Shown: positions 7,760 to 40,120 of the stretch, one piece after another
Numbering within the stretch: position 1 is the stretch's first letter
Layout: each line of letters starts with the position of its first letter
DNA from: Gammaproteobacteria bacterium
GTDB taxonomy: Bacteria; Pseudomonadota; Gammaproteobacteria; Acidiferrobacterales; Sulfurifustaceae
Length of the DNA: 40,323 bases
Assembly: GCA_016199745.1 (NCBI GenBank)
Contig: JACQFZ010000002.1
Span: 1 to 40,323 of the forward strand
Reading direction: 5' to 3'
The notes under the pieces: generated by a model
Databases searched by the model: none
Seen by the model: only the letters and a program-made list of their open reading frames with translations
Told to the model about the DNA's origin: nothing
Program-made: the position numbers and the translations under genes

Positions 7760-7765
7760 AGCGAA

Positions 7766-8071: not shown

Positions 8072-8087
8072 TCGGAGAAAATAAATC

Positions 8088-8477: not shown

Positions 8478-8502
8478 TTATGGTCGCATCAGCGAACAAA
8501 TT

Positions 8503-8598: not shown

Positions 8599-8642
8599 GA
8601 GCCGAAGCGCGCTTGGCGCGCGCATTTTTTAAGGATTGGCCT

Positions 8643-9176: not shown

Positions 9177-9211
9177 TCCCAGGGAACTTATAAGGTTTCG
9201 GGTCAGAGACT

Positions 9212-9568: not shown

Positions 9569-9576
9569 GGAATCAC

Positions 9577-10086: not shown

Positions 10087-10094
10087 AGGTTGCC

Positions 10095-10286: not shown

Positions 10287-10346
10287 TCCCGCGGTATCGC
10301 CAACAACGACAGGCACGACGTAAAAGAGTTTAGAGAGATCAAAATT

Positions 10347-10781: not shown

Positions 10782-12121
10782 TGAGCAGCCAGAGCGCGCG
10801 TCTCGGAGGTCTTGGTAACCTCGGTAAGTTAACGGATCTCAAGCAACGGATTCTGTTCCTGCTGGGCGCGTTGGTGGTTTATCGTATCGGTACCTATATT
10901 CCGGTACCTGGAATAGACCCCAGTGCGCTGAGTAAGTTATTCGAAAACACACAAGGCTCGATCGTTGGCCTGTTCAACATGTTTTCGGGTGGCGCGCTGC
11001 AGCGGTTTTCGGTGTTTGCCCTCGGAATTATGCCGTATATTTCGGCATCGATCATTGTTCAGCTAATGTCGTCGGCGATTCCGGCGCTTGAACAGCTGAA
11101 GAAGGAAGGCGAATCCGGCCGTCGCAAGATTACGCAGTACACGCGCTATGGCACGGTGTTGTTAGCGATGGTGCAGTCGCTCGGTATCGCGATTGCGCTG
11201 CAGAAGCAGGGCGTAGTGGTATCGCCTGGTATCGCCTTTAGCGTGCTGACCGTGGTGACGTTGGTCACTGGCACGATGTTCCTGATGTGGCTGGGTGAAC
11301 AGATCACTGAGCGCGGCATCGGTAATGGCATCTCGATGATCATTTTTTCAGGTATCGTTGCCGGCTTACCCGGTGCATTGGTTCATACGCTGGATCTCGT
11401 CAGCCGCGGTACATTCCAACCGTTATTCGCGTTGGTGTTATTCGTGATCGCAATTGCCGTGACCTGGTTTGTGGTGTTGGTTGAGCGTGGGCAGCGACGC
11501 ATTACTGTTAATTATGCCAAGCGCCAACAAGGTCGGCGCATGATGGCCGGATCGAGCAGCCATTTGCCGCTTAAGATCAATATGGCCGGTGTAATTCCGC
11601 CGATCTTTGCGTCGAGTATCATCTTATTGCCGTCGACGGTGGTGGGCTGGCTTGGCAAGTCTGATGGGGCTGGAGGCTGGTTAGCGAATATTGCGACCAC
11701 GCTATCGCCGGGTCAGCCGATTTATGTGGTGTTGTACGCCTCGGCGATCGTGTTCTTTTGTTTTTTCTACACAGCGCTGGTGTTCAATCCAAAGGAAACC
11801 GCTGATAATTTGAAGAAGTCCGGCGCTTTTATCCCGGGCATTCGGCCAGGCGATCAGACGGCCAACTACATCGACGGCGTGATGACGCGGTTAACATTGG
11901 TCGGTGCAATTTACATCACGCTCGTGTGCTTGTTACCCGAATTCTTGATCGTGAATTGGAACGTTCCATTTTATTTCGGCGGTACGTCGCTGTTGATCGT
12001 AGTCGTCGTTTGTATGGATTTCATGGCGCAGGTGCAGGCGCACCTGATGTCTCGGCAGTACGAAAGTTTGCTCCGCAAGGCCAATTTAACCGGCGGCGGG
12101 GGTATGGGGTTACCGCGGTAA
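10781..12121 (+). CDS. secY: Protein translocase subunit SecY
   Basis: SecY is the channel of the SecYEG translocon in the inner membrane, for export and membrane insertion. Ten hydrophobic segments are visible. The plug region ([20 protein letters not shown]), the [15 protein letters not shown] loop, and the cytoplasmic loop [22 protein letters not shown] that contacts SecA and the ribosome are all present. The length of 446 residues compares with 443 in E. coli. It sits in its usual place between rplO and rpmJ. Confidence 0.98.
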
Positions 12122-12138
12122 GCGGCTGGAGAATTGCA

Positions 12139-12252
12139 ATGAAAGTCAGAGCATCGGTTAAGAAAATGTGCCGTAACTGCAAGATTGTGCGGCGCAAACG
12201 CGTGGTTCGGGTGATTTGTTCCGATCCGACGCACAAGCAGCGTCAAGGCTAA
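12139..12252 (+). CDS. rpmJ: 50S ribosomal protein L36 (zinc-binding type)
   Basis: A 37-residue protein starting [15 protein letters not shown]. The four zinc ligands C11, C14, C27 and H32 of the zinc-ribbon form are present, so this is the zinc-dependent type. It is 17 nt after secY behind TGGAGA. The AT-rich 68-nt gap that follows (12253–12320) may hold the alpha-operon promoter or leader, but I cannot assign boxes with confidence. Confidence 0.97.
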
Positions 12253-12320
12253 GGTTGCTTTTTACCTTTTAGAACAGTAAATTTGCGCGTTTTCGCGTAT
12301 TCCCGGGCAGAGATAGGACT

Positions 12321-12695
12321 ATGGCGCGTATAGCCAACATCAATATTCCGAACCAGAAGCACATCGAGATCGGCCTCACGGCGATCTACGGCATCGGCCG
12401 GTCGGTGGCGAAGCGCTTATGCGTCGCCGCTAACATTCCCGGCAATACCAAGGTCAAAGACCTGACCGACGCTCAAGTCGATCAGCTCCGCATCGAAGTG
12501 GCCAAGATCACGGTGGAAGGCGATCTGCGTCGCCAGATCTCGATGAACATTAAACGTTTGATGGACCTCGGCACTTATCGTGGCATGCGCCACCGCCGCG
12601 GTCTGCCGGTCCGGGGCCAACGTACCCGTACCAATTCGCGCACCCGTAAGGGCCCGCGCAAGGGCGTGATCCGTAAAGCCGCCCCCTCGACCTAA
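12321..12695 (+). CDS. rpsM: 30S ribosomal protein S13
   Basis: S13 lies in the 30S head and contacts 50S (bridge B1) and P-site t[23 protein letters not shown] at the start, YGIGRS, and [15 protein letters not shown] followed by [13 protein letters not shown] are canonical. It has 124 residues, slightly longer than the 118 of E. coli. It opens the alpha operon order rpsM–rpsK–rpsD–rpoA–rplQ. Confidence 0.98.
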
Positions 12696-12710: not shown

Positions 12711-13121
12711 ATGGCGAACACACCGGAAACCGCGGCTGCCCCTAAGGCCGCCGTTAAGAAGCGCACGAAGAAGAACGTGTCCGAGGGCATCGTGCACGTG
12801 CACGCCTCGTTCAACAACACGATCATTTCGATCACCGATCGTCAGGGCAACGTCTTGTCCTGGTCAACGTGCGGTGGCGCCGGCTTCAAGGGTTCGCGCA
12901 AGAGCACGCCGTTCGCCGCGCAGGTTGCGGCCGACAAGGCCGGTCGGGCGGCGCAAGAGTACGGGGTGAAGAGCCTCGAAGTCCGGATTAAAGGTCCCGG
13001 CCCCGGCCGTGAATCGGCCGTGCGTGCGTTGCACGCGTTGGGCTACGAGATCAGCAATATTATCGACGTTACCTCGATTCCGCATAATGGCTGCCGTCCG
13101 GCCAAGCGGCGTCGCGTCTAA
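12711..13121 (+). CDS. rpsK: 30S ribosomal protein S11
   Basis: S11 forms part of the 30S platform near the E-site. [41 protein letters not shown] and the end [14 protein letters not shown] are diagnostic (quoted in part). It has 136 residues; the extra residues relative to E. coli (129) are at the alanine/lysine-rich N-terminus. An AAGGA box lies upstream. Confidence 0.98.
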
Positions 13122-13136
13122 CGCGAGGAGAATAAA

Positions 13137-13763
13137 GTGGCGCGTTACATCGATGCAAAATGCCGTCTGTGCCGGCGTGAAGGTGGCAAGTTATTCCTGA
13201 AGGGCGAGAAGTGCTTCACCGACCGTTGTCCGGTCGAGAAGCGCGCCTATGCCCCCGGTCAGCACGGTCAACGCCGTTCGCGGGTATCGGATTACGGCCT
13301 GCAGTTGCGCGAGAAGCAAAAGCTCCGTCGCATCTACGGCGTGCTTGAGCGTCAGTTCGAGAACTATTACAAAGAAGCCTCGCAGCACAAGGGTTCGACC
13401 GGTGTTGACCTGTTGAAGCTGCTTGAGGGTCGTCTCGACAACGTCGCCTATCGCATGGGTTTCGGCATTTCCCGCACCGAGGCGCGTCAGCTGGTGCGTC
13501 ATAACGCGATCATGGTGAATGGCAAGCGCGTGAACATTCCCGCGTACCAAGTTCGGGCCAACGACACCCTTGAGATTGCCCCAGGTGCGCGTGAGCAGCT
13601 GCGTATCAAGGCTGCGCTCGAAGCTGCTGAACAACGCGGTTTCCCGGACTGGGTCGACGTCGACACCAAAGGCATGAAGGGCACCTTCAAGGCCGCTCCT
13701 GAGCGGTCCGATCTCCCGGCTGACATTAACGAAAGCCTGGTGGTCGCGCTGTACTCCAAGTAG
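13137..13763 (+). CDS. rpsD: 30S ribosomal protein S4
   Basis: S4 is a primary 16S binding protein; in E. coli it represses the alpha operon through a pseudoknot at the rpsM start. It begins [20 protein letters not shown] and holds cysteines CRLC and [14 protein letters not shown], and an S4 domain ([28 protein letters not shown]). The start codon is GTG behind a strong CGAGGAG site. It has 208 residues (E. coli 206). Confidence 0.98.
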
Positions 13764-13792
13764 TAGCAATTTTAGTATCACGAGGACGGATC

Positions 13793-14797
13793 ATGCAGAG
13801 CACTGCAACCGATTTTCTCAAGCCGCGACATGTGAATGTCGAGGCCCTGTCGCCGACGCACGCCAAGATCACGCTCGAGCCGCTCGAACGTGGCTTCGGT
13901 TACACGCTCGGCAACGCACTGCGCCGCATCTTGTTGTCGTCGATGCCGGGTGCTGCGGTCACCGAGGTCAAGATCGACGGCGTCTTGCACGAGTACTCGA
14001 CCATCGAGGGCGTGCAGGAAGACGTCATCGAAATCTTGCTGAACTTGAAAGGCTTGTCGCTGCGCATGCACGGCCGCGAACAGACCACGCTCAAGCTCAA
14101 TAAAAAGGGCCCGGGCCTTGTTACTGCCGGCGACATCGCCGCCGAGCACGACGTCGAGATCGTCGACCCGAATCACGTGATCGCGACCCTGACCAAGAGT
14201 GTCTCGCTCAACGCCGAGCTCAAGGTGTTCCGTGGCCGCGGTTACCAGCCAGTGACGGCGCGTCCGCAAGGCGAAGGCCGCTCGATCGGCGTCATGCAAC
14301 TCGACGCTTCGTTCAGCCCGATCCGTCGCGTGTCGTACACCGTCGAGAACGCCCGCGTTGAACAACGCACCGACCTCGACAAGTTGGTGCTCGACATCGA
14401 GACCAACGGCTCGATCGATCCGGAAGAAGCGGTCCGCCGCGCCGCCAACATTCTGCAAGATCAGATCTCGATTTTCGTCGATTTGAAGAGCCCGGATGCG
14501 CGCCAGGAACTGAAGCGCGAGCCGGACATGGATCCGTTGTTACTGCGCCCGGTCGACGATCTCGAGCTGACCGTGCGTTCGGCCAATTGCTTGAAGGCCG
14601 AGAACATCTTCTATATCGGCGACCTGATCCAACGCAGCGAATTCGAACTGCTGAAGACGCCGAACCTTGGCAAGAAGTCGCTGACCGAGATCAAAGACGT
14701 GCTCGCGCAGCACGGTCTCTCGCTCGGCATGCGCCTCGAGAACTGGCCGCCGACACAACTCAAAGACAAGCTGGGCGATAAAGGCCCACAAGGCTAA
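13793..14797 (+). CDS. rpoA: RNA polymerase alpha subunit
   Basis: The alpha subunit dimerises to start RNA polymerase assembly and its C-terminal domain binds UP elements and activators. The N-terminal domain ([21 protein letters not shown]) and the C-terminal domain ([32 protein letters not shown]) are complete, with a flexible linker at about residues 233–248. It has 334 residues (E. coli 329). It starts behind CGAGGAC and ends 12 nt before rplQ. Confidence 0.99.
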
Positions 14798-14809
14798 CGG
14801 GATACCACC

Positions 14810-15280
14810 ATGCGTCATAGACATAGCGGTCGTAAACTGAACCGCACCACCGCCCATCGCGAAGCGATGTTGCGCAACATGGCGGTCTCGCTGCTGAAGC
14901 ACGAGCAGTTGTTCACGACCTTGCCGAAGGCCAAAGAGCTGCGCAAAGTTGCCGAACCGCTCATCACCCTAGGCAAGACCCCGAGTCTCGCCAACCGTCG
15001 TCTCGCCTTCTCGCGTCTGCGCGATCGTGACGTAGTCGGCAAGTTATTCGCCGATCTCGGTCAGCGTTTTAAGACACGCCCGGGTGGTTACCTGCGCATC
15101 TTGAAATCCGGTTTTCGCGCCGGTGATGCCGCGCCGATGGCGTTGGTTCAGTTGGTGGATTTGACGCCAGCTAAGGCTGCTGAAGAAGCGCCAAGCACGG
15201 AGGCTGCACCAGCAAAGACCGCGAAGAAAACCAAGAAGGCGACGGCTAAGAAGAAGACCGCAAAGGCATCAGCCGAATAA
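14810..15280 (+). CDS. rplQ: 50S ribosomal protein L17 with long basic tail
   Basis: L17 lies near the exit tunnel on the solvent side of 50[19 protein letters not shown] and [18 protein letters not shown] are canonical. At 156 residues it exceeds the 127 of E. coli because of a low-complexity alanine/lysine tail from about residue 120 ([19 protein letters not shown]). It is the last gene of the cluster and is followed by an intrinsic terminator. Confidence 0.98.
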
Positions 15281-15306
15281 TCGTCGCATCAGTTCGACGT
15301 ACAATG

Positions 15307-15336
15307 AAAGCCGGGCATAGCCCGGCTTTTTCTTTT
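15307..15336 (+). terminator. Intrinsic terminator after rplQ
   Basis: Perfect stem AAAGCCGGGC/GCCCGGCTTT with a three-base loop (ATA), followed by TTTTTCTTTT. It marks the end of the ribosomal protein cluster. Confidence 0.93.
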
Positions 15337-15388
15337 ACGGGATCTGAAAAAGATTTCCCCTGTATTTTTTTCTCTGCGAGGGATGCGC

Positions 15389-16117
15389 ATGATCGTTCTG
15401 TTCACTGACTTCGGATTGGCTGACCCATATGTTGGGCAGATGCACACGGTGCTTTCGCGCGAGACACCGAACATTCCAGTGATCAACCTGCTGCACACAG
15501 TACCCGATTTCGACATTCGTGCCGGTGCGTATTTGCTGCCGGCGTTGGCCGCCGACTATCCCCGTTCCACCGTATTTGTCGGCGTGATCGACCCTGGCGT
15601 CGGCGGTGATCGCGCAGCAGTGATGATGAAGGCTGACTGCCGTTGGTATGTGGGGCCGGACAATGGTTTGTTTCACATCATCGCTCGTCGGGCACAACGA
15701 AAAGATGTTTGGATGATTAATTGGCGGCCCGAGCGCTTGTCGACGAGTTTTCACGGCCGCGATTTATTCGCACCGATCGCCGCCAAGCTCGCGCGCGGCG
15801 ATTGGCCGGATTGCGTTCCGGCGGAGTTGACGCAACCGTCGGGTGATTGGCCGGACGACCTACCGGCAGTTGTTTATATCGATCACTACGGGAACGTCAT
15901 TACCGGCCTGCGTGCGTCGACGCTGGCACGCCATGCTGCGCTTATTGTTGGCGGTCGGCGGCTGCGTTTTGCTGAAGTTTTTACCGCCGTTCCGGTCGGC
16001 GAGCCGTTTTGGTACGAGAACTCGAACGGCCTTGTCGAGATCGCCACGAACAGAGCCAGTGCCGCGAAACTGTTGCGCGTGGCAGTGGGGGATCAGGTAA
16101 CAATATCCCAATCGTAA
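15389..16117 (+). CDS. SAM hydroxide adenosyltransferase (DUF62 family)
   Basis: This family cleaves S-adenosylmethionine with water-derived hydroxide to adenosine and methionine. Motifs visible are IVLFTDFGLADPYVGQM at the N-terminus, VGVIDPGVGGDRAAV, WYVGPDNGLF, FHGRDLFAPIAA and, in the C-terminal domain, VVYIDHYGNVITGL. Those aspartates and the DHYGN segment match the known active-site layout of the family. I prefer the ATG at 15389, 6 nt after GAGGG; the ATG at 15383 abuts that box. The product has about 242 residues and is soluble. It stands alone after the rplQ terminator and faces rtcB convergently. Confidence 0.9.
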   Translation: MIVLFTDFGLADPYVGQMHTVLSRETPNIPVINLLHTVPDFDIRAGAYLLPALAADYPRSTVFVGVIDPGVGGDRAAVMMKADCRWYVGPDNGLFHIIARRAQRKDVWMINWRPERLSTSFHGRDLFAPIAAKLARGDWPDCVPAELTQPSGDWPDDLPAVVYIDHYGNVITGLRASTLARHAALIVGGRRLRFAEVFTAVPVGEPFWYENSNGLVEIATNRASAAKLLRVAVGDQVTISQS

Positions 16118-16169
16118 AGCACTGCCGGAATTCAAATCGCACCCCAGTCGTGTTCGATCCGGATGGCGT

Positions 16170-16200
16170 GCCGCTGTTTTGTAAGTCTAATAGCAGCGGC
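16170..16200. terminator. Inverted repeat between convergent genes
   Basis: GCCGCTG and CAGCGGC pair across a 17-nt loop in the 126-nt gap between the convergent SAM-adenosyltransferase and rtcB genes. There is no clear T-run on either side, so a terminator role is only suggested by position. Confidence 0.35.
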
Positions 16201-16243
16201 TTACGGGTAGCGGAGGAAACTTGCAACCGTCTTGGTGTTCACT

Positions 16244-17452
16244 CTATCCCTTGACGCATACCACCTGTTTTAAAGTATGCGCGATTTCGATCAAATCGGT
16301 CTGATACGCCATCACTTGGTCGATGTCCTTATACGCTGCCGGAATTTCGTCGACCACGCCGCCATCCTTGCGACATTCCACGCCTTCCGTTTGTTTCGCT
16401 AGATCGTGGCGGTCGAAGCGCTTCTTCGCTTCCGTGCGGCTCATGCGCCGGCCGGCACCGTGCGAGCAGGAGCAAAACGATTCGGGGTTGCCTTTACCGC
16501 GGACAATGTAGCTCTTCGCACCCATACTGCCGGGAATAATGCCCATTTCGCCGGCGCGCGCCGAGATCGCGCCCTTGCGCGTGATGAATAGTTTTTCGCC
16601 GAAGTGCGTTTCGCGGGCGACGTAATTATGGTGACAGTTGATCGCTTCGCCGTCGGTCTTGAACGACGGTAACTGCGGCTGGATCGCTTCGATGATCAAC
16701 TCCATCATGCGGCGGCGGTTGAGTAGCGCGTAGTCTTGTGCCCAGTCGACCGCCTCGACATAGTCGGTGAACAACGCCGAGCCGTCGGCGAACCAAGCGA
16801 GATCCTTGTCCGGTAATCGCAGTTTATTACGTTCCGCTTCTTTGCGCGCGGCGGTGATGAAGTAGCGGCCCATGACGTTGCCGATGCCGCGCGATCCCGA
16901 GTGCAGCATGATCCAGACGCGATTCGCTTCGTCCAGGCACAGCTCGATAAAATGATTGCCGCCGCCGAGCGAACCGAGCTGGGTAATCCACGTCTGGTTG
17001 AATTGGCGCTGCATCTTCATTAAACCCGGATGCTTACCGACGATCGTATTCAAGCGATCGTCGAGTTTGCGCGCCAGTCGCGCGTGCGCTGAACCGTGAA
17101 CTTTGTCGAAGTCATGTTGATCGAAGCCGACCGGCACGGCCGCTTCGATGGCGTTGCGCACGCGGGCGAGATTGTCCGGCAAATCGTCGGCGCCTAACGT
17201 CAGTCGTACGGCGTTCATACCGCAGCCGATATCGACACCGACCGCCGCCGGAATGATCGCCGCTTTGGTCGGGATCACGCTGCCGACTGTGGCACCGATG
17301 CCGGCGTGCACATCGGGCATCGCCGCCACATGGCTGTGCACGATCGGCAGCTGAGCGACGTTGATCAGCTGTTGTAGCGCTTGCGGATCGATGTCGTCGG
17401 TCCACAGCTTGACCGGTACGCGGCCTTTGTCGATGGTTTTTCTGACGGTCAT
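16244..17452 (-). CDS. rtcB: RNA-splicing ligase RtcB
   Basis: RtcB joins 2',3'-cyclic phosphate (or 3'-phosphate) to 5'-hydroxyl RNA ends, using GTP and manganese. The metal and active-site signature GVDIGCGM (D74, C77), GGGNHFIE, the HSGSRGIG loop, the NCHHNYVARE segment and the guanylylated-histidine motif CSCSHGAGRRMSR are all present. It has 402 residues (E. coli 408). It follows the CDF transporter gene by 9 nt on the same strand, so the two are probably co-transcribed. No RtcA, RtcR or archease gene is nearby, so the usual RtcR control is not evident. Confidence 0.96.
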   Translation of the reverse strand: MTVRKTIDKGRVPVKLWTDDIDPQALQQLINVAQLPIVHSHVAAMPDVHAGIGATVGSVIPTKAAIIPAAVGVDIGCGMNAVRLTLGADDLPDNLARVRNAIEAAVPVGFDQHDFDKVHGSAHARLARKLDDRLNTIVGKHPGLMKMQRQFNQTWITQLGSLGGGNHFIELCLDEANRVWIMLHSGSRGIGNVMGRYFITAARKEAERNKLRLPDKDLAWFADGSALFTDYVEAVDWAQDYALLNRRRMMELIIEAIQPQLPSFKTDGEAINCHHNYVARETHFGEKLFITRKGAISARAGEMGIIPGSMGAKSYIVRGKGNPESFCSCSHGAGRRMSRTEAKKRFDRHDLAKQTEGVECRKDGGVVDEIPAAYKDIDQVMAYQTDLIEIAHTLKQVVCVKG

Positions 17453-28207: not shown

Positions 28208-28417
28208 CTATCTGTCCATTACTAACAATGATTGACTCCCTGTTGCTAATGCACGCTTTTGTTTGATTCGCTCGTAGACCTCTTCGCGGTGAACAGGAAC
28301 TTCCTTTGGCGCATCAACGCCAATTCTTATCTGATTACCATTAGTCCTAAGCACCGTTATCCGAACGTTGTTACCGACACAAATGGATTGTCCTATCCGT
28401 CTCGTAATAGTCAGCAT
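28208..28417 (-). CDS. csrA: Carbon storage regulator CsrA
   Basis: CsrA is a dimeric RNA-binding protein that blocks or stabilises mRNAs at GGA motifs. The sequence begins [12 protein letters not shown], with the RNA-contacting arginines at 6–7, and continues [21 protein letters not shown], including the conserved HRE arginine. It has 69 residues (E. coli 61), with a short C-terminal extension. The ribosome binding site AAGGAAGGAAA is strong. It starts 3 nt after the stop of a second csrA-like gene, so the two are one operon. Confidence 0.95.
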
Positions 28418-28420: not shown

Positions 28421-28660
28421 TTATTTTCCTTCCTTGTCTAAGAATGTTGCGTGCGATCGGGTGTTACAGCGCAATATCGACACCGAACTTCTCTCGCCTC
28501 GTTTAATAATTTGGTAGATTTCTTGACGGTACACGGACATGTTTTTCGGTACACCAATGCCGACGCGTACCTCGCCGTCCTTAACTACCAGCAGAGTGAT
28601 GGCGACTTCGTCGCCGACGCTTAGCGTCTTGCCAACACTGCCAATGAAAGTGAGATGCAC
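28421..28660 (-). CDS. Divergent CsrA-like protein
   Basis: A 79-residue protein aligned with CsrA through GKTLSVGDEVAITLLVV, GEVRVGIGVPKNMSVYRQEIYQ. The usual LTRR segment is replaced by LTFIGS, so the two N-terminal RNA-contacting arginines are lost, while the arginine in YRQE is kept. A C-terminal extension of about 20 residues has no match I recognise. The start is a GTG at 28660 lying inside the disrupted region of a third csrA-like frame. It may be an RNA-binding variant, a heterodimer partner or a decaying gene. Confidence 0.75.
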   Translation of the reverse strand: MHLTFIGSVGKTLSVGDEVAITLLVVKDGEVRVGIGVPKNMSVYRQEIYQIIKRGERSSVSILRCNTRSHATFLDKEGK

Positions 28661-29421: not shown

Positions 29422-29514
29422 ATGACAACAACCGAAGGAAAGCGCACGATCCTCGTTGCCGACGATGACGTGATCATGCCTGCAGTCATTAGACTGGCAA
29501 TCATGAAAGCTTAA
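29422..29514 (+). pseudogene. 30-residue micro-ORF resembling a receiver-domain start
   Basis: ATG after AGGGAG, encoding MTTTEGKRTILVADDDVIM and ending after 30 residues. The TILVADDD segment is the typical acidic N-terminus of a response-regulator receiver and resembles ILVADDD of the ANTAR regulator at 32261. It ends in TAATG, overlapping the next gene's start by one base. It is either a truncated regulator remnant or a leader peptide that couples translation of the next gene. Confidence 0.5.
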
Positions 29515-29942
29515 TGACCATGATTACCATTCTTCCCCCTCCGATAGCATTGGACGGTAACACCGCCATCTTCAACGACGGTAAGGGCCGCGTCGTCCGC
29601 GTTAACGTAGCAGACGTGCACCAGCTCTATTACGTCCATTCCGGTACCGATCTATACGCCAATGACGAACAATGGTGGCTCATTGAGCTTGAGAAAACGA
29701 TCATCGTCGTTCCCGATGACGTAGATACAAATATCGGGCTGCTTTTAGAAACTTGGAAGAAGCACATCGACGTCAATCAAAAGGGTCACGTCGCGGTTTG
29801 CGAGGTCCCCCCATTGTCTTGGCGCGCTTTGCCGTTCGGTTTCTTGCCGAGCACAACAATGAAGTTATCGATTTTTCCGCGCGAGAAATTACGGAAACTT
29901 GACGGATGGAAAGTCGTGGAACCTCTACGTTTCATACTTTAG
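29514..29942 (+). CDS. Unknown protein, paralog A of a tandem pair
   Basis: I do not recognise this family. It has 142 residues and no signal peptide or membrane segment. Landmarks shared with the next gene are LDGNTAxFxDGKGxVVR, WWLxELEKTIIVxP, QKGxxAVC, PLSWRA, GFLP, IFPRE and WKVxEPL. The shape suggests a mostly β N-terminal half. Its start overlaps a micro-ORF stop (TAATG), so translation is probably coupled. Together with 30045–30488 it precedes a glycine-rich membrane protein gene. An immunity or chaperone role for that protein is possible but only inferred. Confidence 0.7.
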   Translation: MTMITILPPPIALDGNTAIFNDGKGRVVRVNVADVHQLYYVHSGTDLYANDEQWWLIELEKTIIVVPDDVDTNIGLLLETWKKHIDVNQKGHVAVCEVPPLSWRALPFGFLPSTTMKLSIFPREKLRKLDGWKVVEPLRFIL

Positions 29943-29973: not shown

Positions 29974-30048
29974 ATGGCTATATTTTTTCCCCAGGTTCTT
30001 CTTAATAGGAAATTGGTAGTGGAGCTAGTGTTCGAGGAAACTCAATGA
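29974..30048 (+). CDS. 24-residue micro-ORF coupled to the next gene
   Basis: ATG after CAGGGAG; it encodes a short hydrophobic then acidic peptide (MAIFFPQVLLN…VFEETQ). The stop forms an ATGA overlap with the following start at 30045. No homology is recognised. It parallels the micro-ORF before paralog A, which makes it worth noting although such short frames are often chance. Confidence 0.3.
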   Translation: MAIFFPQVLLNRKLVVELVFEETQ

Positions 30049-30488
30049 CCGTTGCCACCACTTCCCCGATAACACTCGACGGTAATACCGCCGTCTTCGA
30101 CGACGGCAAAGGCCATGTTGTCCGGGCCAATGCCGAAGATGTGCGAAAGCTCTATCACGTTTTTTCCGGAATCACTGTGTCTGTCACCGACGAAGATGCT
30201 ACGGTCCAAAAATGGTGGCTGGTAGAACTGGAAAAAACGATCATTGTTATTCCCGAAGAGTTAACAACAATGATTTATTCGCTCCTAAGCGCATGGAAGG
30301 GGCACCTTAAAACCAGTCAGAAAGGGTATGGGGCAGTTTGTGACGCCACACCGCTTTCATGGCGCGCTATGTGGCTGGGTTTTTTGCCCCTGGCCAGGAC
30401 GAAGTTCGCTATTTTTCCGCGTGAGGCGTTTGGCAAACTTCGGCAATGGAAAGTAATGGAACCGCTAGAGGTGGATGATTATGTCTAA
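30045..30488 (+). CDS. Unknown protein, paralog B of a tandem pair
   Basis: A 147-residue paralog of the gene at 29514, clearly alignable over its length (LDGNTAVFDDGKGHVVRAN, WWLVELEKTIIVIPEEL, TPLSWRAMWLGFLP, FAIFPREAF, WKVMEPLE). It has no signal peptide and only a weak hydrophobic patch. It begins on an ATGA overlap with a 24-residue micro-ORF and has no good Shine-Dalgarno of its own. The pair arose by tandem duplication and has diverged considerably, which suggests both copies are under selection. Confidence 0.7.
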   Translation: MTVATTSPITLDGNTAVFDDGKGHVVRANAEDVRKLYHVFSGITVSVTDEDATVQKWWLVELEKTIIVIPEELTTMIYSLLSAWKGHLKTSQKGYGAVCDATPLSWRAMWLGFLPLARTKFAIFPREAFGKLRQWKVMEPLEVDDYV

Positions 30489-31515: not shown

Positions 31516-31551
31516 TCGTCGCATTTCCCATCGAGGATGAGAAGTAACATC

Positions 31552-32160
31552 ATGACCGACCTACGCATGGAATCACTACGCGGCGAAGAAATCAGAAAAC
31601 AACTTCGCCCGCTCTCCGAGCTTCGTATCGCCGTATTTCATGATTGGCCCTATTTATACGAGGGTAGTCTGGACTACGAGGCACACTATCTCGAAACTTA
31701 TATGCGTTGTCCCCGGAGCCTCATCGTACTGCTATGGGACGGCGACAAGTGTGTCGGCGCAACGACCGTAATACCGCTGGTGGACGCCTCTGCCGAATGG
31801 CAGCGACCGTTTATGGAAAAAGGATTCGACCTAAACCAGGTCGACTACTTCGGCGAATCAGTGATTCTCAAGTCCCATCGGGGCCGCGGCTTTGGCGTCG
31901 CCTTTTTCAAGGAACGCGAGGCGCACGCGCGTGAACTCAATCTACCTATCTGTGCATTCTGTTCCGTCGAACGTCCCGCCAACCATCCGGCGAAGCCCGC
32001 TAACTATATTCCCAACGATGGATTTTGGACGCACCGCGGTTATCGCAAAGTGCCAGACATGAAGACCACGTTTTCCTGGCCCGATATCGGCGCGACGGAA
32101 TCAACCGAAAAGCCGATGACATTTTGGATGCGAGACTTCCGAACCGGAGCCGGAAGCTAA
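31552..32160 (+). CDS. GNAT-family N-acetyltransferase, copy 1
   Basis: About 202 residues with a GNAT fold. A WPYLYEGSLDYEAHYLETYM segment near the N-terminus is followed by strands carrying LIVLLWDGDKCVGAT. The acetyl-CoA loop is SVILKSHRGRGFGVAFF (RGRGFG being the R/Q-x-x-G-x-G/A motif). The end is conserved (NDGFWTHRGYRKVP, TFWMRDF). The ATG at 31552 is favoured because its MTDLRM start aligns with MTEYRI of the third paralog; an ATG at 31537 is also open. The substrate is unknown. It is nearly identical to 39503–40120 and related to 33357–33986. Confidence 0.85.
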   Translation: MTDLRMESLRGEEIRKQLRPLSELRIAVFHDWPYLYEGSLDYEAHYLETYMRCPRSLIVLLWDGDKCVGATTVIPLVDASAEWQRPFMEKGFDLNQVDYFGESVILKSHRGRGFGVAFFKEREAHARELNLPICAFCSVERPANHPAKPANYIPNDGFWTHRGYRKVPDMKTTFSWPDIGATESTEKPMTFWMRDFRTGAGS

Positions 32161-32260
32161 GTCGACGGATCTAGCTAGGAGTCTTTCGCACATTTAGTAA
32201 CAAAATTACTACGGCAAGCGCTAGTTGAATAGGACGCCGTTTATCTAAGGGAGACCAGCT

Positions 32261-32932
32261 ATGAATATCGTCGACAATAAGATCAAGATTTTAGTCGCAG
32301 ATGACGATCTACTCACGCTCGAACTGGCTCAGAGAACGTTGGAGGAGGCGGGCTATGTCGTGTTTGTTACGACGTCGGGAGAGCAGGCGATAGAACTCGT
32401 CACTACTCAGCAAGTCGATCTGGCGTTACTAGATTATCGAATGCCGGACGTATCTGGACTCGACGCGGGGAAGGCGATTATGGCTCTTGCATCTACTCGT
32501 TTTATCGTCATGTCGGTTCATGCAGACGAGGATGTGGTAAGCCAGGCGGGTGTGGAAGGCGCGCTTGGGTTTCTTGTAAAGCCGTTCGATCCAAAAGAAC
32601 TGCTAGCTCAAGTTCGCGTTGGGCTCAGCCGTGCCGTCGAGATAAACGCGTTGCAATCATCGATCAAGGATATGGAGCAAGGTCACGCCTCCGCCTTGTC
32701 TAGAGCGGTCGCTAGCGCTCGCAGTGCTAGCACAGCAATCGGAATGCTGATGGAGCTTATGTTGATAACGCGCGAGGAGGCGACGCAGTTTATAACCCGT
32801 GAGGCAAAGAACCAGCGCAAACGAATGGTCGAGCTGGCGGAGAACCTTATTACCGAACGGGAGCAAGACTACCGGGCAAAAACCCGAGACCGTTGGTGGT
32901 TTGCTGACCTCCGGCGGGCCAAAAACCGCTAA
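32261..32932 (+). CDS. Response regulator with C-terminal ANTAR RNA-binding domain
   Basis: A 223-residue two-domain protein. The receiver has acidic residues DDD at 14–16, the phospho-acceptor D58 (ALLDYRMP) and K107 (FLVKPFDP). After a linker, residues of about 150–198 form an ANTAR-like three-helix unit (SASTAIGMLMELMLITREEA … RKRMVELAENLI). ANTAR proteins bind two-hairpin RNA motifs and prevent transcription termination. No histidine kinase is paired directly; the nearest is the hybrid kinase at 35040. A good AAGGGAG box precedes the ATG. A remnant of a similar receiver start lies at 29422. Confidence 0.88.
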   Translation: MNIVDNKIKILVADDDLLTLELAQRTLEEAGYVVFVTTSGEQAIELVTTQQVDLALLDYRMPDVSGLDAGKAIMALASTRFIVMSVHADEDVVSQAGVEGALGFLVKPFDPKELLAQVRVGLSRAVEINALQSSIKDMEQGHASALSRAVASARSASTAIGMLMELMLITREEATQFITREAKNQRKRMVELAENLITEREQDYRAKTRDRWWFADLRRAKNR

Positions 32933-32935
32933 GAA

Positions 32936-33356
32936 ACGAATCCGAAAGAACTAGGGTAGTGCTCGGCCTGGGCTTTTCGATGGTGCCAGGGCGAGCTGCG
33001 CAGCTTCGATCTAATTTTTTGAATAATTTTCCCCGCAATTCCCCCGCCATGAACCAACTAAGCCTTTCGCAATAACTTGAATTACCATAGGAAGTAGGAC
33101 GTAGTTCTCACCCCTACCGCAAGGGAAGGGGGGCAAGGAAGCGCGGAAGGAATGCCCATGAGAAATGCTGTCCGTCGCTGATGGTTTGTGCCGCACCGCA
33201 TTCCCTTCTAAACCCAACTCCGTATCGCTGTATTAGTCAGTCACCCATACTTTTAATTAATGTGGCGTCCTAACCAGGAATACGCTGAAGGGTTTTTCAC
33301 GACTATCACCGCCACCTCAGAAATTCTTGATCGGGTCGCCCTCTTAAGGAGAGGCC
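32936..33356. other. Intergenic region with a degenerate palindromic repeat
   Basis: This 420-nt gap holds no credible gene. At about 33108–33134 the sequence CTCACCCCTACCGCAAGGGA followed by AGGGGGG resembles the half-element of the repeats in the ribosomal cluster. The rest is AT-rich and must include the promoter of the GNAT–binding-protein–kinase operon. Confidence 0.5.
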
Positions 33357-33986
33357 ATGACCGAGTACAGAATCTTGATCGGCAAGGAAGCCGCTGATCA
33401 AATCGATTTTGTCAGTGCAATGCGCATTAAGCACTTTCGCGAATACCCCTATTTGTACGACGCTACGCTCGATCCCGAGTATGAAAAAAAATATATCCAT
33501 GAGCTTGCCCAAAATCCGCATGCCATGGTCGTCCTGGCCTACGCAAATAGCAAACCCATCGCCATCTCCACCTCATTACCGCTGGCCAGCGATGCAGACA
33601 TACTCCACGGGTTGGAACCCGAATTTAAGCGTCAGGGTTACAATAATCTTTCGGAGTTTTACTATTGGAGCGAGGCTATTATTGAGCCAGAATTCCGAGG
33701 TTATCCCATTCTTCCCCGCCTTTACGAGCGTTTCGAGTTCCAGGTGCTCAACTGAGGGTACGCGCACGCTTGCCTTGCTACGGTAGTGCGCGATGATATC
33801 GATTCTCGAAAGCCGTGGAGTTACAGAGATCCAGGCGCAATATGGCGGAGACTCGGATACACCATTACCGATATCTTATTCGACTATTCCTGGCCAACAA
33901 GGATGGAAGACGGATCATCGTGTTACGCAGTCAATAAAATGGTGATGTGGATTAAGGACGGAATTCGACAGAGGAAACGCGCTTGA
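33357..33986 (+). pseudogene. GNAT-family acetyltransferase paralog with one in-frame TGA
   Basis: The frame starts behind a strong AAGGAGAGG box and encodes a GNAT-like protein (FREYPYLYDATLDPEYEKKYI, then IIEPEFRGYPILPRLYE). It meets a TGA at 33753–33755 after 132 residues. The very same frame continues for 76 codons with clear homology to the end of the other two GNAT proteins (GAIWRRLGYTITDILFDYSWP, MWIKD). No shift is needed, so this is a single nonsense codon: a recent mutation, a sequencing error or, less likely, programmed readthrough. The true end overlaps the next gene by 4 nt. Confidence 0.82.
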
Positions 33987-35050
33987 AAAAAAAATCTTCC
34001 CGCTGGCTTGTTGTCACCACGCTACTTTTATGTTCGTTACGCGGATACGGAGGCGATGCATCTGTCCCCGTATCGGTGCACCTCTATAACTGGTGGGATT
34101 ACATAGCGCCCACTGTTACAAAACGGCTAGCTAATTCAGGTTATCAAACGAAGGTAACCGCTTATGTAAGCAATGAGGTCGCAATATCCCGTCTATCTGC
34201 TCAGCAACACGATTTCGACGTTGCTATCGTCTCTAATTTTGCCTTGCCTTACTTGATAGAGCATGGGCTGGTCGAAACCGATCAGTTCCAAAACACAGCA
34301 AAAAAACGAAATTACTTGCCACTATTCGCCGATGCTGTACCGCATTGTTTGCCGTACTTTTGGTCAAGCACCGTATTTATCGCTAATGAGCAACAAACGC
34401 CGAATATACCTAGTAGTCTGCGAGAACTTTTGGCTCTCAAAAAGGAAGGTTACAAAATAGGGATTGTTGATGATCTCTTTGAAACGGCGGCTCGCCTTAT
34501 CGGCGACTCGAAAGAAATTTGCGGCAAATCACCGACCGACTACATTGGCGGAAATATTTTCAACATTCTGTCCAACTGCTCGGACAAGAAGTTTACGCAG
34601 ATCGAAGGGCTCGAGGCAGGTGATTTCGTTTCTGCGCTCGATGATTTATTGAAGAATCCAAAAATCGCCGTCTACGCCTGGCACGGTGCAGCGTTTATGC
34701 ATCTATCCAAATATCCTCATCTGCGTGCCAAGGTGCCTCATATGCCAGTCATTGGTTACGACGCGGTTTGCATCGTGAAAAGAAAAAATCGAAAAGCGTC
34801 TCTTGGTGACTTGGTCAAATACGTCGAGACACTGACCGACAAACAAAGCACGGCGTTGAACATGAGTTCCAATCAGTACTTTTCGCCTTATAAAAACCAT
34901 ACGACGGGGCTAATGCCGCCGACGCGGGAGTTGTATGAAGAAGTAACGAGGAACGTGAGTCATCAAAAGCCAATTATCTTAAAACCACCACGTTTGCCGG
35001 ACCACTTGCGACTCAACGAGTGGTGGATATCGGTGCGGTATGCGCCGTAA
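33983..35050 (+). CDS. PotD-like periplasmic substrate-binding protein
   Basis: A 355-residue protein with a signal peptide (KKKSSRWLVVTTLLLCSL, cleavage likely after GYGGDA). The fold is of the spermidine/putrescine-binding type: VHLYNWWDYIAPTV at the mature N-terminus, the YVSNEVAISRLSAQQHDFDV hinge, VSNFALPYLIEHGLVE, then IGYDAVCIVKR. No ABC permease or ATPase gene is near, so transport is unlikely to be its main job; a sensing role is suggested by overlap with the kinase gene. It starts with TTG inside the upstream stop (CTTGA overlap) and its 3' end overlaps the kinase by 11 nt. The ligand is unknown, but polyamine-like or amino-acid-like compounds are plausible. Confidence 0.82.
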   Translation: MKKKSSRWLVVTTLLLCSLRGYGGDASVPVSVHLYNWWDYIAPTVTKRLANSGYQTKVTAYVSNEVAISRLSAQQHDFDVAIVSNFALPYLIEHGLVETDQFQNTAKKRNYLPLFADAVPHCLPYFWSSTVFIANEQQTPNIPSSLRELLALKKEGYKIGIVDDLFETAARLIGDSKEICGKSPTDYIGGNIFNILSNCSDKKFTQIEGLEAGDFVSALDDLLKNPKIAVYAWHGAAFMHLSKYPHLRAKVPHMPVIGYDAVCIVKRKNRKASLGDLVKYVETLTDKQSTALNMSSNQYFSPYKNHTTGLMPPTRELYEEVTRNVSHQKPIILKPPRLPDHLRLNEWWISVRYAP

Positions 35051-37175
35051 GTTTCAGCACGACGCGCTACTCATCTTAATTATTTGCTCCTGGATACCCG
35101 TGGCAATCGCGGCGGCGCTTATCTTGGTGCAAATGCGTTCTTATCGTCAGATTGATGAGGCGCGCGTGGAGGGTCGTCTCAACCAAGCAAAGGCCTCTCT
35201 AAATAGCCATCTACTAGGCGTCGAGGCCGCCGCCGAAATCTTGCTGGCGAGCAGAGAATTAAACGAGTTTTTCTTCGTGACGGAATCCATACGGCCTATG
35301 ACTAGGAACCGGCTGTATGCGCGAACCTCTTTGTTAAAGAAAAAAGCGTCAGACATATCAGCCTTTACAGTTGTGAACAGGGCATCGGAAGCCCTATTTT
35401 CAGCTCCAGTGTCGGACATCAAAAAACTGCCAAGGGTTAGCCCCGATCACTACGGATTTTCACTAATCGATCAGAACACATTGCGTTATTACCGGCCGAT
35501 TGAGTATGACGATCAGGAATTTCCAGGGCCGGCTGCAAAATTGAGGGGTTTCCTCATTTTAGATATAGATCTTCGGTCATGGAGGAGTTCGCTGGGTGAT
35601 ACCGTAAAGATTAATAAAATCTCCAAGCAACCATCCATTTTCGGTATTGATTTGGAGATTGTAGACAATGACGCAGTAAGCCCTGGACAGTACCTTCCGT
35701 ATCTACTCGTGCTGCTTATCGTGCTTGCGTTCACCACCATGGTGGGACTGCACCTAACGCGCTCGCGAATCGTTAAGCCCATCACAAACCTGACGGATTA
35801 TGTGCGTCAACAGATGGATACCACTCCAGGGTCGACACAGCACCACGAGTTGGCTGTATTGAAAGAGTCGTTCGAGACCTACATCCGGTACGAAAAGGAG
35901 TTGCAAGCAAAGCTGCTACAGCAATCGACGCTTGCCGCTATCGGACGAACCACACAAATGCTGGCGCACGACGTGCGCAAACCGTTTTCCATGCTAACGA
36001 CTTTTCTGCACTTGACCCGCAATGCCAAAGATCAGGCAGATTTTAATTCCTTACGCCGCAGGCTGGTTCCTGAAATCGACAAGGCCGTTATTTCAGTGCA
36101 GGGCCTAATTCGCGACATCATGGAAGTGGGCAGCAATAGAAAGCCGGACAAGGAGATCGTGCATCTATCGTCGCTGATCCAGACAACACTTTATGAAGCG
36201 TTTCGAATAAAACCGCGTCGTGACATTAAATTTCGCTACGCGCTAAATCATCGTCAGGCTTTGTATGTTGATCCGATAAAAGCGTCCCGCGTATTTTCTA
36301 ATATCACTTCGAATGCCCTAGAGGCAATGCGAAGCGGCGGTGAAATTTGGTTTCAAACCAGGGAAATGGATAATCGTTCGCCGCGAATGATGGAGATTAC
36401 GATAGGGAACAGCCACAGCTTTGTTCCGAAGAAGAAAAGAGATCAGATCTTCGACCTATTTTTTACGGAAGGGAAACAAGGCGGTGTTGGCTTAGGGCTT
36501 GCTATCGTGAAGAAATTGGTTATCGATCACGACGGAGAGATAAAGTGCGAATCGTCGGAAAAGAGGGGGACCGAATTTATCTTTACGTTGCCTATGACCG
36601 ATGCGATTTCAGAGGATGTCACGGAATCTCTACCGTCTGCCAGCGATGAAATCGTTTCCGCACTAGAAGCCATGGGGCATCAATCGGTCGAGTTATCTAA
36701 ATCAAATGATAATGAGACGAGACTGGCAGGGCGAATAATCGATATCGTCAGGCAATTAGGACGGCCAGTGAAAGTCTTAATCGCCGATGACGAATCGCTT
36801 TATCAGCGAGTTCTCGAATCGTATATCGAAGAATTACCCCTTAAACCGCACGTGCAGCTAGCATTTACTCAAAGCGCCGAAAAAGCGTTGGAGATCCTGG
36901 GCAACGAGTGCTTCGATGTCGTCATCATGGATGTAAATTTTGGTAAGGGAAAGCTTAATGGATTCGAAGCGGTCAAGCGGTTACGAGAGCAGGGCAATCG
37001 AGCAACTATTTGCACTCACTCGAACCACGGTGTCCTGGAGTATCAAAGCAGAGCTATTGAATCAGGCTCGAATGTATTCATGCTCAAACCCATGAGCAAA
37101 GCGCATTTATTGGATTTAATTCATTCCACAGTAACTGAGCATGCATCGTCGCGCAGCAGCCCAGAGCTGATGTGA
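35040..37175 (+). CDS. Hybrid histidine kinase with periplasmic sensor and receiver
   Basis: A 711-residue inner-membrane kinase. TM1 lies at about 10–31, an extracytoplasmic sensor at about 35–215 and TM2 at about 219–238. Then come a HAMP-like segment (241–290) and a dimerisation domain with phospho-acceptor H310 (LAHDVRKPF). The ATPase domain has N box NITSNALEA (421–429) and G2 box GVGLGLAI (482–489), with a degenerate G1 region. It ends in a receiver with DD583–584, D631 and K683. Its start lies inside the binding-protein gene (11-nt overlap), which implies co-translation and a shared ligand-sensing complex. The output partner is unknown. Confidence 0.9.
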   Translation: MRRKFQHDALLILIICSWIPVAIAAALILVQMRSYRQIDEARVEGRLNQAKASLNSHLLGVEAAAEILLASRELNEFFFVTESIRPMTRNRLYARTSLLKKKASDISAFTVVNRASEALFSAPVSDIKKLPRVSPDHYGFSLIDQNTLRYYRPIEYDDQEFPGPAAKLRGFLILDIDLRSWRSSLGDTVKINKISKQPSIFGIDLEIVDNDAVSPGQYLPYLLVLLIVLAFTTMVGLHLTRSRIVKPITNLTDYVRQQMDTTPGSTQHHELAVLKESFETYIRYEKELQAKLLQQSTLAAIGRTTQMLAHDVRKPFSMLTTFLHLTRNAKDQADFNSLRRRLVPEIDKAVISVQGLIRDIMEVGSNRKPDKEIVHLSSLIQTTLYEAFRIKPRRDIKFRYALNHRQALYVDPIKASRVFSNITSNALEAMRSGGEIWFQTREMDNRSPRMMEITIGNSHSFVPKKKRDQIFDLFFTEGKQGGVGLGLAIVKKLVIDHDGEIKCESSEKRGTEFIFTLPMTDAISEDVTESLPSASDEIVSALEAMGHQSVELSKSNDNETRLAGRIIDIVRQLGRPVKVLIADDESLYQRVLESYIEELPLKPHVQLAFTQSAEKALEILGNECFDVVIMDVNFGKGKLNGFEAVKRLREQGNRATICTHSNHGVLEYQSRAIESGSNVFMLKPMSKAHLLDLIHSTVTEHASSRSSPELM

Positions 37176-37512: not shown

Positions 37513-38061
37513 GTGTTTGAAGAAGAAAAACTTCACCGTCTCGATCACCAACAAACCGAAGATCGCTATCTACGTGTTCGTGAACTGGTGTACGAGCGAA
37601 TTATGAAGAAATGGTCCGTGACAGCAGCCGGCATTTCGTTCCACGACTGCGTAACGGCGGATAAATGGAAAGCCCTAACAGGTCCGAATGTGCGGGAGAC
37701 ACGCGCTAGTTGGTGGTGGGCAGAGCAATTTTCGGTCTATCAAAATCAGCCCAACCGGTTCGAGATTACGTTATCCAATTGCGGCCAATTAGGTGCTTTG
37801 TGTTATGGCCGCACTTCCCGGGCAGGTAGGAACACTAGGCTAGACTTAATAGAAGCAATACCACTCAAACCGTCGCCGCTCAATACGCGCGCTGTGCCGA
37901 TAATCGTACAGGCGGGCGTAATGTTTGCAGATTTGGTCGGCGCGTCCGAAATCTGGATCATAGACCCGGATCCGAAACTTGAGGGGTTGTATAGCCAGGA
38001 ACAGTTCGGTGGCCGGGAGCCGTACCATAAGGGTCGCATCGGTCAGAGGAGGATTTTATGA
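37513..38061 (+). CDS. Unknown protein, possibly GNAT-like fold
   Basis: A 182-residue soluble protein starting with GTG behind CAGGGAG. I do not recognise a family with certainty. The order of segments (LGALCYGRTSRAG, RLDLIEAIPLKP, RAVPIIVQAGVMFADLVGAS, EIWIIDPDPKLEGLYSQEQF) resembles strands 4–5 and helices 3–4 of an acetyltransferase. However, the canonical acetyl-CoA loop is not evident. Its stop overlaps the next gene by ATGA, and a third gene overlaps that one, so it heads a compact three-gene operon. Confidence 0.6.
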   Translation: MFEEEKLHRLDHQQTEDRYLRVRELVYERIMKKWSVTAAGISFHDCVTADKWKALTGPNVRETRASWWWAEQFSVYQNQPNRFEITLSNCGQLGALCYGRTSRAGRNTRLDLIEAIPLKPSPLNTRAVPIIVQAGVMFADLVGASEIWIIDPDPKLEGLYSQEQFGGREPYHKGRIGQRRIL

Positions 38062-39465: not shown

Positions 39466-39502
39466 TCGTCGAACCGCTAAATCAAGGATGACAAGTAACA
39501 TC

Positions 39503-40120
39503 ATGACCGACCTGCGCATGGAATCATTACGTGGCGAGCAAATCAGAAAACAGCTTCGCCCGCTCTCCGAGCTTCGTATCGCCGTATTTCGCGACTGGCC
39601 CTATTTGTACGAGGGCAGCTTGGAATACGAAGCACACTATCTCGAAACTTATATGCGCTGTCTCCGGAGCCTCATCGTGCTGCTATGGGACGACGACAAG
39701 TGCGTCGGCGCAACGACCGTATTGCCGCTCGCGGATGCAGCGGCTGAATGGCAGCGACCGTTTGTTGAAAAAGGATTCGACTTGAGTCAGATCGACTATT
39801 TCGGCGAGTCAGTGATCCTCAAATCTTATCGGGGCCGCGGCTACGGCGTTGCGTTTTTCAAGGCGCGCGAAGCGCATGCGCATGAGTTGAGTTTGCCTAT
39901 CTGCGCATTCTGTTCGGTCGAACGCCCCGCCAACCATCCGGGAAAACCCGCCAACTATATTCCCAACGATGGATTTTGGACGCACCGCGGTTATCACAAA
40001 GTGCCAGAGATGAAGACCACGTTTTCGTGGCCTGATATCGGCGCGACGGAATCAACCGAAAAGCCGATGACGTTTTGGATGCGGGACTTCCGAGTTGGCT
40101 CGGCAGGCAAGTCGAGCTAG
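39503..40120 (+). CDS. GNAT-family N-acetyltransferase, copy 2
   Basis: About 205 residues, nearly identical to the protein at 31552–32160 over its whole length (DWPYLYEGSLEYEAHYLETYM, LKSYRGRGYGVAFF, NDGFWTHRGYHKVP, TFWMRDF). The acetyl-CoA loop RGRGYG is intact. Many differences are conservative or silent, so both copies look functional. Its start is chosen as in copy 1; the ATG at 39488 is the alternative. Homology continues upstream of the gene into the promoter. An insertion sequence begins about 65 nt after its stop. Confidence 0.85.
   Translation: MTDLRMESLRGEQIRKQLRPLSELRIAVFRDWPYLYEGSLEYEAHYLETYMRCLRSLIVLLWDDDKCVGATTVLPLADAAAEWQRPFVEKGFDLSQIDYFGESVILKSYRGRGYGVAFFKAREAHAHELSLPICAFCSVERPANHPGKPANYIPNDGFWTHRGYHKVPEMKTTFSWPDIGATESTEKPMTFWMRDFRVGSAGKSS

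Follow-up and report, generated by a model that had tools for sequence, protein, structure and literature searches.

Three overlapping genes in a 40,323-nucleotide stretch of a gammaproteobacterial genome (assembly GCA_016199745.1, contig JACQFZ010000002.1, positions 1 to 40,323; the window) probably constitute a new variant of the kinases that are assisted by a solute-binding protein (SBP). The triplet encodes a GNAT-like protein, a PotD-like periplasmic SBP, and a hybrid histidine kinase (HK). It is present in two copies in its genome and has no adjoining ABC transporter, and its kinase belongs to a lineage that is tied to SBPs and whose sister operons frequently contain enzymes. Because genes of this lineage often lay beside genes for an SBP and for a small-molecule- or peptide-making enzyme, the data suggested that the signal sensed by the cells is one that they also produce. 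We give an even chance to the proposal that the triplet is a sensor of a self-made signal with a GNAT-like step in signal production.

The triplet spanned positions 33357 to 37175, with all genes on the forward strand. The reading frame of the GNAT-like gene (33357 to 33986) contained a premature stop, an in-frame TGA, at positions 33753 to 33755. The SBP gene (33983 to 35050) had a TTG start and encoded a PotD/PotF-like protein of 355 amino acids with an N-terminal signal sequence (by inspection), and the HK gene (35040 to 37175) encoded a 711-amino-acid protein with a HisKA domain carrying the motif AHDVRKPF, a HATPase_c domain, and a REC domain. The GNAT and SBP genes overlapped by 4 nucleotides (33983 to 33986) and the SBP and HK genes by 11 (35040 to 35050), which agreed with an earlier note made on this DNA from its sequence. 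The absence of an ABC transporter partner, also claimed there, was borne out: no ABC transporter ATPase gene was found in the window with a crude screen for Walker A and LSGG motifs, whose single match was UvrA at 21.9 to 25.2 kb. Thus, the SBP gene adjoined the kinase gene in an operon without a transporter, as in systems of the LuxPQ and TorTS type. The extent of the unit had to be corrected. The earlier note began it at 31552, which took in a separate GNAT gene (31537 to 32160) and the gene for a REC-ANTAR regulator (32261 to 32932) that ended about 425 nucleotides before the triplet. It also overlooked the TGA in the triplet GNAT gene and an intact copy elsewhere in the genome.

That copy came to light when the genome was searched with the SBP, which had a 74% identical counterpart on another contig (region L019). 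The GNAT, SBP, and HK genes followed in the same order at positions 12861 to 16718 of this region, and the GNAT gene (16038 to 16718) encoded 226 amino acids without a stop. The 4-nucleotide overlap was kept, as was the 11-nucleotide overlap if the homologous ATG was used as the HK start. The recurrence of the gene order and overlaps on another contig indicated that the triplet is not a chance arrangement. The HKs of the two copies were 68% identical, and the two pieces of the window GNAT were 43% and 59% identical to the intact protein. Nonsynonymous divergence (dN) was highest for the GNAT (0.39), followed by the HK (0.22) and the SBP (0.16); synonymous divergence was saturated. The contig of the second copy ended 0.9 kb upstream of the GNAT gene, and an open reading frame (ORF) for an ABC ATPase, of the exporter type by inspection, lay about 8.5 kb from the copy.

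The window kinase matched the Pfam models HATPase_c and REC above their cut-offs and HisKA below it (20.2 of 26.9 bits). Its H, N, and G2 boxes were intact, and two hydrophobic segments (about residues 11 to 33 and 218 to 239, by inspection) flanked the sensor region. The protein therefore had the HisKA, HATPase_c, and REC domains and the periplasmic sensor region of a hybrid HK, with the membrane segments assigned by inspection. A model of the sensor region contained a long helix and five strands and had no PDB match at E<=0.001, so we claim no sensor fold. Single-sequence AlphaFold gave a predicted local distance difference test score of 60.9 for this region and 34 for the SBP.

When the phospho-acceptor region of the kinase was compared with a collection of genome contigs (84,980 species genomes), 110 stretches matched and 66 loci were confirmed (L049 to L114). 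We named this group the AHDVRKPF lineage after its motif in the dimerization and histidine phosphotransfer domain. Bdellovibrionota names (Oligoflexia, Silvanigrellales, Pseudobacteriovorax, and Bdellovibrio) were carried by 39 of the 66 loci; 19 were from metagenome-assembled genomes (MAGs) with no name more precise than "proteobacterium." Zooshikella, Elusimicrobia, and Deltaproteobacteria were among the remaining ones. Some of these hosts are relatives of predatory bacteria. With a kinase profile built without sequences of the triplet's own genome, the two triplet HKs scored 339 and 322 bits, and the next kinase examined in that genome scored 95 bits (20 regions for 53 HATPase_c matches, plus the window and L019). 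The motif and a profile score well above those of other kinases placed the triplet HKs in the lineage. In a midpoint-rooted tree, the two HKs (HKa and HKb) joined two kinases of a single Oligoflexales MAG, L073 and L065, with support of 99/96; L073 as their nearest relative had support of only 97/76, and the bootstrap was not fully settled.

The lineage kinases were often associated with SBP genes. An SBP gene was found upstream, on the same strand and within 3.5 kb, at 30 of the 49 lineage loci for which the sequence extended at least 2 kb upstream, compared with 0 of 48 control kinases (Fisher test, 2.6e-12, kinship not corrected). Within the three genomes that supplied the controls, the counts were 11 of 18 and 0 of 48, respectively. 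The controls came from 59 kinases drawn by HATPase_c rank from three lineage-bearing genomes; five higher-ranked kinases were skipped because they were <9 kb from another drawn one, and six of the 59 that scored at least 150 bits (our own threshold) were removed as lineage members. Three loci were dropped before the counts (L058 and L114, with no kinase called, and L107, with the wrong ORF), and L192 and L194 repeated L082 and L066. Because the training set of the SBP profiles consisted of SBPs encoded next to lineage kinases, and because the loci are related, the SBP count is biased. Pfam tallies are free of the profile bias. Among 76 proteins encoded one or two genes upstream of lineage kinases (without L107 and the kinase fragment of L081), 18 were SBP_bac_5 and 6 were Peripla_BP_6 proteins. 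Among 52 control proteins, response regulators were the commonest (six). The tally covered the 25 most populated families, with 2 to 6 members apiece, and none of these was an SBP family, although one or two SBPs among the controls could escape such a tally. Two further SBPs, at L104 (SBP_bac_1) and L105 (ABC_sub_bind), were recognized by Pfam alone. By the same crude test as above, the 66 kinase loci yielded no ORF with both Walker A and LSGG motifs.

Enzyme genes accompanied 21 of the 30 SBP-positive lineage loci. A YcaO gene lay between the SBP and kinase genes at ten loci by local profile (L075, L076, L079, L080, L081, L093, L094, L095, L097, and L102; placement at L081 was by coordinates). 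Pfam backed these assignments except at L095, where the local profile stood alone; the Pfam tally itself counted five YcaO members without naming loci. At L109, the YcaO gene was upstream of the SBP gene. Other operons contained methyltransferases (L051, L053, L099, and L111), a radical SAM protein (L096), a pyridoxal phosphate-dependent decarboxylase with an EamA-radical SAM protein (L057), an ATP-grasp protein with EamA (L064), or a hexapeptide transferase with MatE (L113). In the case of L050 (4644 to 9674), the operon encoded an AfsA protein (A-factor-type hotdog), a CMD protein, a Peripla_BP_6 protein, and the kinase, which put a signal-synthase family beside a receptor. The nearest kinase relative in the tree, L073 (1822 to 6859), was preceded by genes for an iron oxygenase (PF05114) that modifies ribosomally synthesized and post-translationally modified peptides (RiPPs) and for an SBP_bac_5-type SBP. 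A possible exporter gene was present at 6 of the 30 loci (L057, L064, L072, L099, L111, and L113; the MFS protein of L099 was below the Pfam cut-off).

A Pfam search for YcaO in 12 lineage-bearing genomes found 23 places in nine genomes. We examined 19 of them, leaving out four full-length YcaO matches, and 8 of the 19 were loci already in the set. At four of the 11 new places (L140, L145, L148, and L149), SBP_bac_5 and kinase genes surrounded the YcaO gene, with kinase profile E values of 1e-10 to 1e-118. Four more (L143, L144, L146, and L152) were cut by a contig end but fit the SBP-YcaO-kinase layout, and three (L139, L141, and L156) had neither SBP_bac_5 nor a kinase. Across all loci, 20 distinct YcaO ORFs passed 1e-5; 14 were between an SBP and a kinase, four were cut, and two had neither neighbor. 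In 13 of 17 YcaO operons, the SBP gene was directly preceded by an ORF of 56 to 98 amino acids that had a ribosome-binding site and whose N terminus was of the export type, and two of the four operons without one began at a contig start. Among 23 other SBP_bac_5 entries, seven had an ORF that passed the filter, and two of these (L059 and L082) were peptide-like by inspection. Several of the small exported ORFs had Cys- or Gly-rich tails. The small ORFs of the YcaO operons look like RiPP precursors, and these operons are candidate RiPP pheromone systems.

The triplet SBP matched Pfam SBP_bac_8 weakly (16.2 bits; cut-off, 27) and stayed below the cut-offs of the curated PotF (26 of 636 bits) and PotD (23.2 of 582 bits) models. 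A profile-profile comparison with four PotD-like SBPs gave 98.7% over columns 31 to 295, and the PDB matches were PotF and PotD, within the first 175 residues. The polyamine-type fold proposed in the earlier note thus held as homology across the fold. It need not mean polyamine binding, as the ligands of orphan SBP_bac_8 proteins for which polyamines had been predicted are γ-aminobutyric acid (GABA) and 5-aminovalerate according to PMC11113362. The likeness to PotD only suggests an amine, an omega-amino acid, or an acyl derivative as the ligand. The triplet's own genome encoded four PotD-like SBPs above the Pfam cut-off, and two of the three regions holding them had an ABC ATPase (by motif). 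In 12 kinase-bearing genomes there were five PotD-like matches, and the three examined adjoined ABC transporter genes (by inspection) and not lineage kinases. Among 96 related genomes, 10 matched the SBP; the only close match was in its own genome, and the other nine were at 23 to 32% identity. SBP peptides had no match in the genome-contig collection, and SBP and HK alignments had none in viral contigs. Plasmid searches yielded 36 records for the SBP (21 to 29% identity in the 15 listed) and generic kinases for the HK (21 to 27% identity in 15 of 1546 records).

In the window, the TGA, which may be either a genuine mutation or an error of the assembly, divided the GNAT-like protein into 132 amino acids and a 76-amino-acid tail. 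Neither piece had a Pfam match. The intact protein matched no NCBIfam family at E<=0.01, SpeG/SSAT polyamine acetyltransferases included, and a PDB search with the GNAT gave nothing but two chance cadherin matches. GNAT acetyltransferases have a coenzyme A (CoA) loop of the form R/Q-x-x-G-x-G/A. Both triplet GNATs lacked this loop: the expected RGxGxG was replaced by RGHTIL or RGYPIL (in FRGHTILS and FRGYPILP). Plain acetylation, and with it the earlier suggestion that the GNAT acetylates a small amine, is therefore doubtful. The segments near PYLY and PxKPxxY...W...GY were conserved with relatives that keep the loop. GNAT-fold enzymes such as LuxI can use donors other than CoA, and the triplet GNATs may use another donor, or none. 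Inspection of the listed small ORFs that precede the two GNAT genes revealed no precursor peptide with an export signal.

Homologues of these proteins were encoded in a SnoaL-GNAT-C-N-hydrolase triad, and the aligned triad-type GNATs were 25 to 36% identical to the triplet GNATs. Six of ten plasmid matches were examined; three (Aquicella, Aeromonas, and Ruegeria) had the full triad, Sphingobium and Xanthomonas had a partial one, and Azospirillum had none. In two cases, homologous GNATs were beside formaldehyde-metabolism genes. The single GNAT match among 12 kinase-bearing genomes (G708) was also triad-type, with a C-N-hydrolase-like ORF adjoining. The GNAT genes that flank the triplet (31537 to 32160 and 39488 to 40120, about 8 kb apart) had been taken as fitting a signal-related role. 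Their products were 89% identical to each other, 67 to 69% identical to a GNAT encoded between SnoaL-like and C-N hydrolase genes on contig C50, and only 25 to 26% identical to the intact triplet GNAT. Given this kinship to the triad-type GNAT, we rejected them as members of the system.

In the proposed mechanism, the SBP would be exported and would bind a small ligand. Loaded or empty, it would dock on the hybrid kinase at its periplasmic portion, and docking would change the flow of phosphate between His310 and the REC domain. In the cytoplasm, the ligand would be made or modified by the GNAT-like protein, and the cell would thereby sense a compound produced by itself or by related cells. 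Contact between the SBP and the HK seems to us quite likely, and action of the GNAT on the ligand about evenly balanced. The binding-protein-assisted kinase with a dedicated enzyme that the earlier note envisaged is in keeping with the frequent coupling of the lineage to SBPs and biosynthetic enzymes and with the lack of an adjoining transporter; the degenerate CoA loop of the GNAT speaks against its enzymatic part. Since the window GNAT is broken and the second copy is intact, the window unit may by now serve only to receive a signal that the other copy supplies.

Several observations weighed against a self-made-signal sensor of the AHDVRKPF type. In addition to the TGA and the altered CoA loop in the triplet GNATs, no response-regulator partner of the HK was identified. 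A blastp comparison (E<=1e-3) of the 66 kinase loci detected no homologue of the triplet GNAT or SBP, 19 of the 49 lineage kinases had no SBP by the local profiles (L104 and L105 among them), and 9 of the 30 SBP-positive loci had no recognized enzyme (L059, L060, L071, L072, L082, L083, L100, L101, and L106). Five control kinases formed a long-branch group beside L077 and L084 within the midpoint-rooted tree, so the lineage is not established as a single clade. At E<=1e-30, only the genome's own two kinase cores were found in 299 genomes of the phylum (five candidates scored per genome), and the sensor region had one weak 78-residue match outside its own genome in 369 genomes of the class. No GNAT-PotD-like-HK triplet beyond the two in this genome was found. 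The expectation of conserved triplets in other genomes was thus only partly realized: there was no exact further triplet, but a broader SBP-kinase-enzyme architecture was present.

This rarity in relatives, the lower GC content, and the kinase tree pointed to bacteria of the Bdellovibrionota type as the probable donors from which both copies were laterally acquired. The GC contents of the triplets were 47.8% and 49.2%, compared with 57.2% for window positions 1 to 28000 and 56.6% for L019 positions 1 to 12500. The nearer window flanks were also fairly low in GC (50.9% and 51.3%), which counts against a lateral origin, as the low GC content is not peculiar to the triplet.

The SBP and HK could instead report an external amine or omega-amino acid, with the co-expressed GNAT modifying the compound after uptake in a SpeG-like role and no self-made signal involved. 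A PotD-like SBP would suit such a sensor, and dedicated PotD-like sensors of external polyamines exist (NspS-MbaA). The company that homologous GNATs keep, namely SnoaL-like and C-N hydrolase genes and, in two cases, the formaldehyde-metabolism genes, likewise points to metabolism. However, the operon has no uptake system, the sister operons hold signal- or peptide-type enzymes (AfsA, YcaO, and the RiPP iron oxygenase), and the metabolic homologues keep the CoA loop that the triplet GNAT has lost. We consider an environmental sensor unlikely.

It is less probable still that the GNAT-like protein does not act on the ligand at all and is a degenerate regulatory or structural partner, or the product of a decaying gene, with only the SBP and HK mattering. 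The lost loop, the stop codon in the window, the faster divergence of the GNAT, and the lack of Pfam and NCBIfam matches would all fit this reading; an intact second copy with its overlaps kept, segments shared with loop-keeping relatives, and the use of non-CoA donors by GNAT folds such as LuxI speak against it. A SBP and an HK that are neighbors without contact, the SBP feeding a transporter encoded elsewhere, is very improbable in our judgment. The genes overlap in both copies, the lineage as a whole is coupled to unrelated SBP families, and its 66 loci were devoid of ABC ATPase motif ORFs in the crude test. On the other side, two of three regions with PotD-like SBPs in this genome have an ABC ATPase, whose permease might be shared, and AgtS and AruS of Pseudomonas aeruginosa were not activated by neighboring SBPs (PMC11113362, in excerpt). 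As those SBPs bind GABA and 5-aminovalerate without activating the kinases, neither ligand nor contact is to be assumed for the triplet.

More tentatively, and at somewhat below an even chance, we propose that AHDVRKPF kinases form an undescribed class of self-made-signal circuits, of which the window unit would be an amine or acyl version, laterally acquired and duplicated. Such a circuit would consist of an enzyme (or a precursor peptide plus a RiPP enzyme), sometimes an exporter, a periplasmic SBP suited to the compound produced, and a hybrid kinase. In Bdellovibrionota, many of these circuits would be peptide pheromone systems with the layout small exported ORF, SBP_bac_5, YcaO, and kinase. 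Because the lineage is often encoded with its own SBP and biosynthetic enzyme, it would offer dozens of receptor-enzyme pairs, and signals could be found by matching each SBP to the product of its neighbor enzyme.

As for other genes in the window, two tandem CsrA-like genes (28208 to 28417 and 28421 to 28660, reverse strand, by inspection) encoded proteins 35 to 37% identical to each other. Tandem similar-looking proteins of 142 and 147 amino acids were encoded at 29514 to 29942 and 30045 to 30488 (by inspection), and a 182-amino-acid protein encoded at 37513 to 38061 matched nothing in Pfam (E<=0.1) or NCBIfam (E<=0.01). The nearby ANTAR regulator and Csr proteins had been suggested to act downstream of the kinase. 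Within the 17.6 kb that surround the second triplet, neither the CsrA nor the ANTAR proteins had a counterpart, the sole match of the ANTAR protein there being the REC domain of the HK itself, and we rejected both as kinase outputs.

In LuxP-LuxQ and TorT-TorS, a periplasmic SBP of type I acts beside a membrane hybrid HK with a REC domain. The triplet resembles them in that its SBP gene adjoins a hybrid HK gene, and the LuxQ and TorS models match the triplet HK generically. It differs in its PotD-like SBP, in the enzyme gene that overlaps the SBP gene, and in an HK that scores far below the LuxQ and TorS cut-offs. NspS-MbaA of Vibrio and Sinorhizobium, as described in excerpts, shares a periplasmic polyamine-type binding protein as a dedicated receptor; the output there is a cyclic di-GMP enzyme, whereas the triplet partner is a hybrid HK and not a GGDEF-EAL protein. 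An NspS-MbaA-like arrangement was seen in a genome of the same class (G092; L039, 6330 to 10598), in which a triad-type GNAT gene and an SBP_bac_8 gene were divergently oriented and the latter preceded a HAMP-GGDEF-EAL gene. In excerpts of PMC11113362, 11 SBP-activated kinases are characterized, and the two genes are associated in 10 of the 11. The SBPs of the AgtS and AruS regions treated in the same source are, like ours, orphan SBP_bac_8 proteins near sensor kinases; the difference is that they bind GABA or 5-aminovalerate and did not activate those kinases. The SnoaL-GNAT-C-N-hydrolase triad shares a homologous GNAT, but triad GNATs keep RGxGxG, and the triad has no SBP or kinase.

Regarding the wider SBP-enzyme-kinase class, we found no description in our searches of open-licence PMC papers, and one may exist elsewhere. 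RiPP clusters near signaling genes in Bacteroidales are discussed in PMC10352776, and no description of the class was found in a search on Bdellovibrio quorum sensing, kinases, and SBPs, passages of PMC8846402 included. The closest comparison is with the other AHDVRKPF kinases. Their SBPs are mostly SBP_bac_5 or Peripla_BP_6 proteins, their enzymes are YcaO proteins, methyltransferases, and others, and no homologues of the triplet GNAT and SBP were found at their loci; what they share with the triplet is the kinase lineage, an SBP encoded upstream, and, in many operons, an enzyme.

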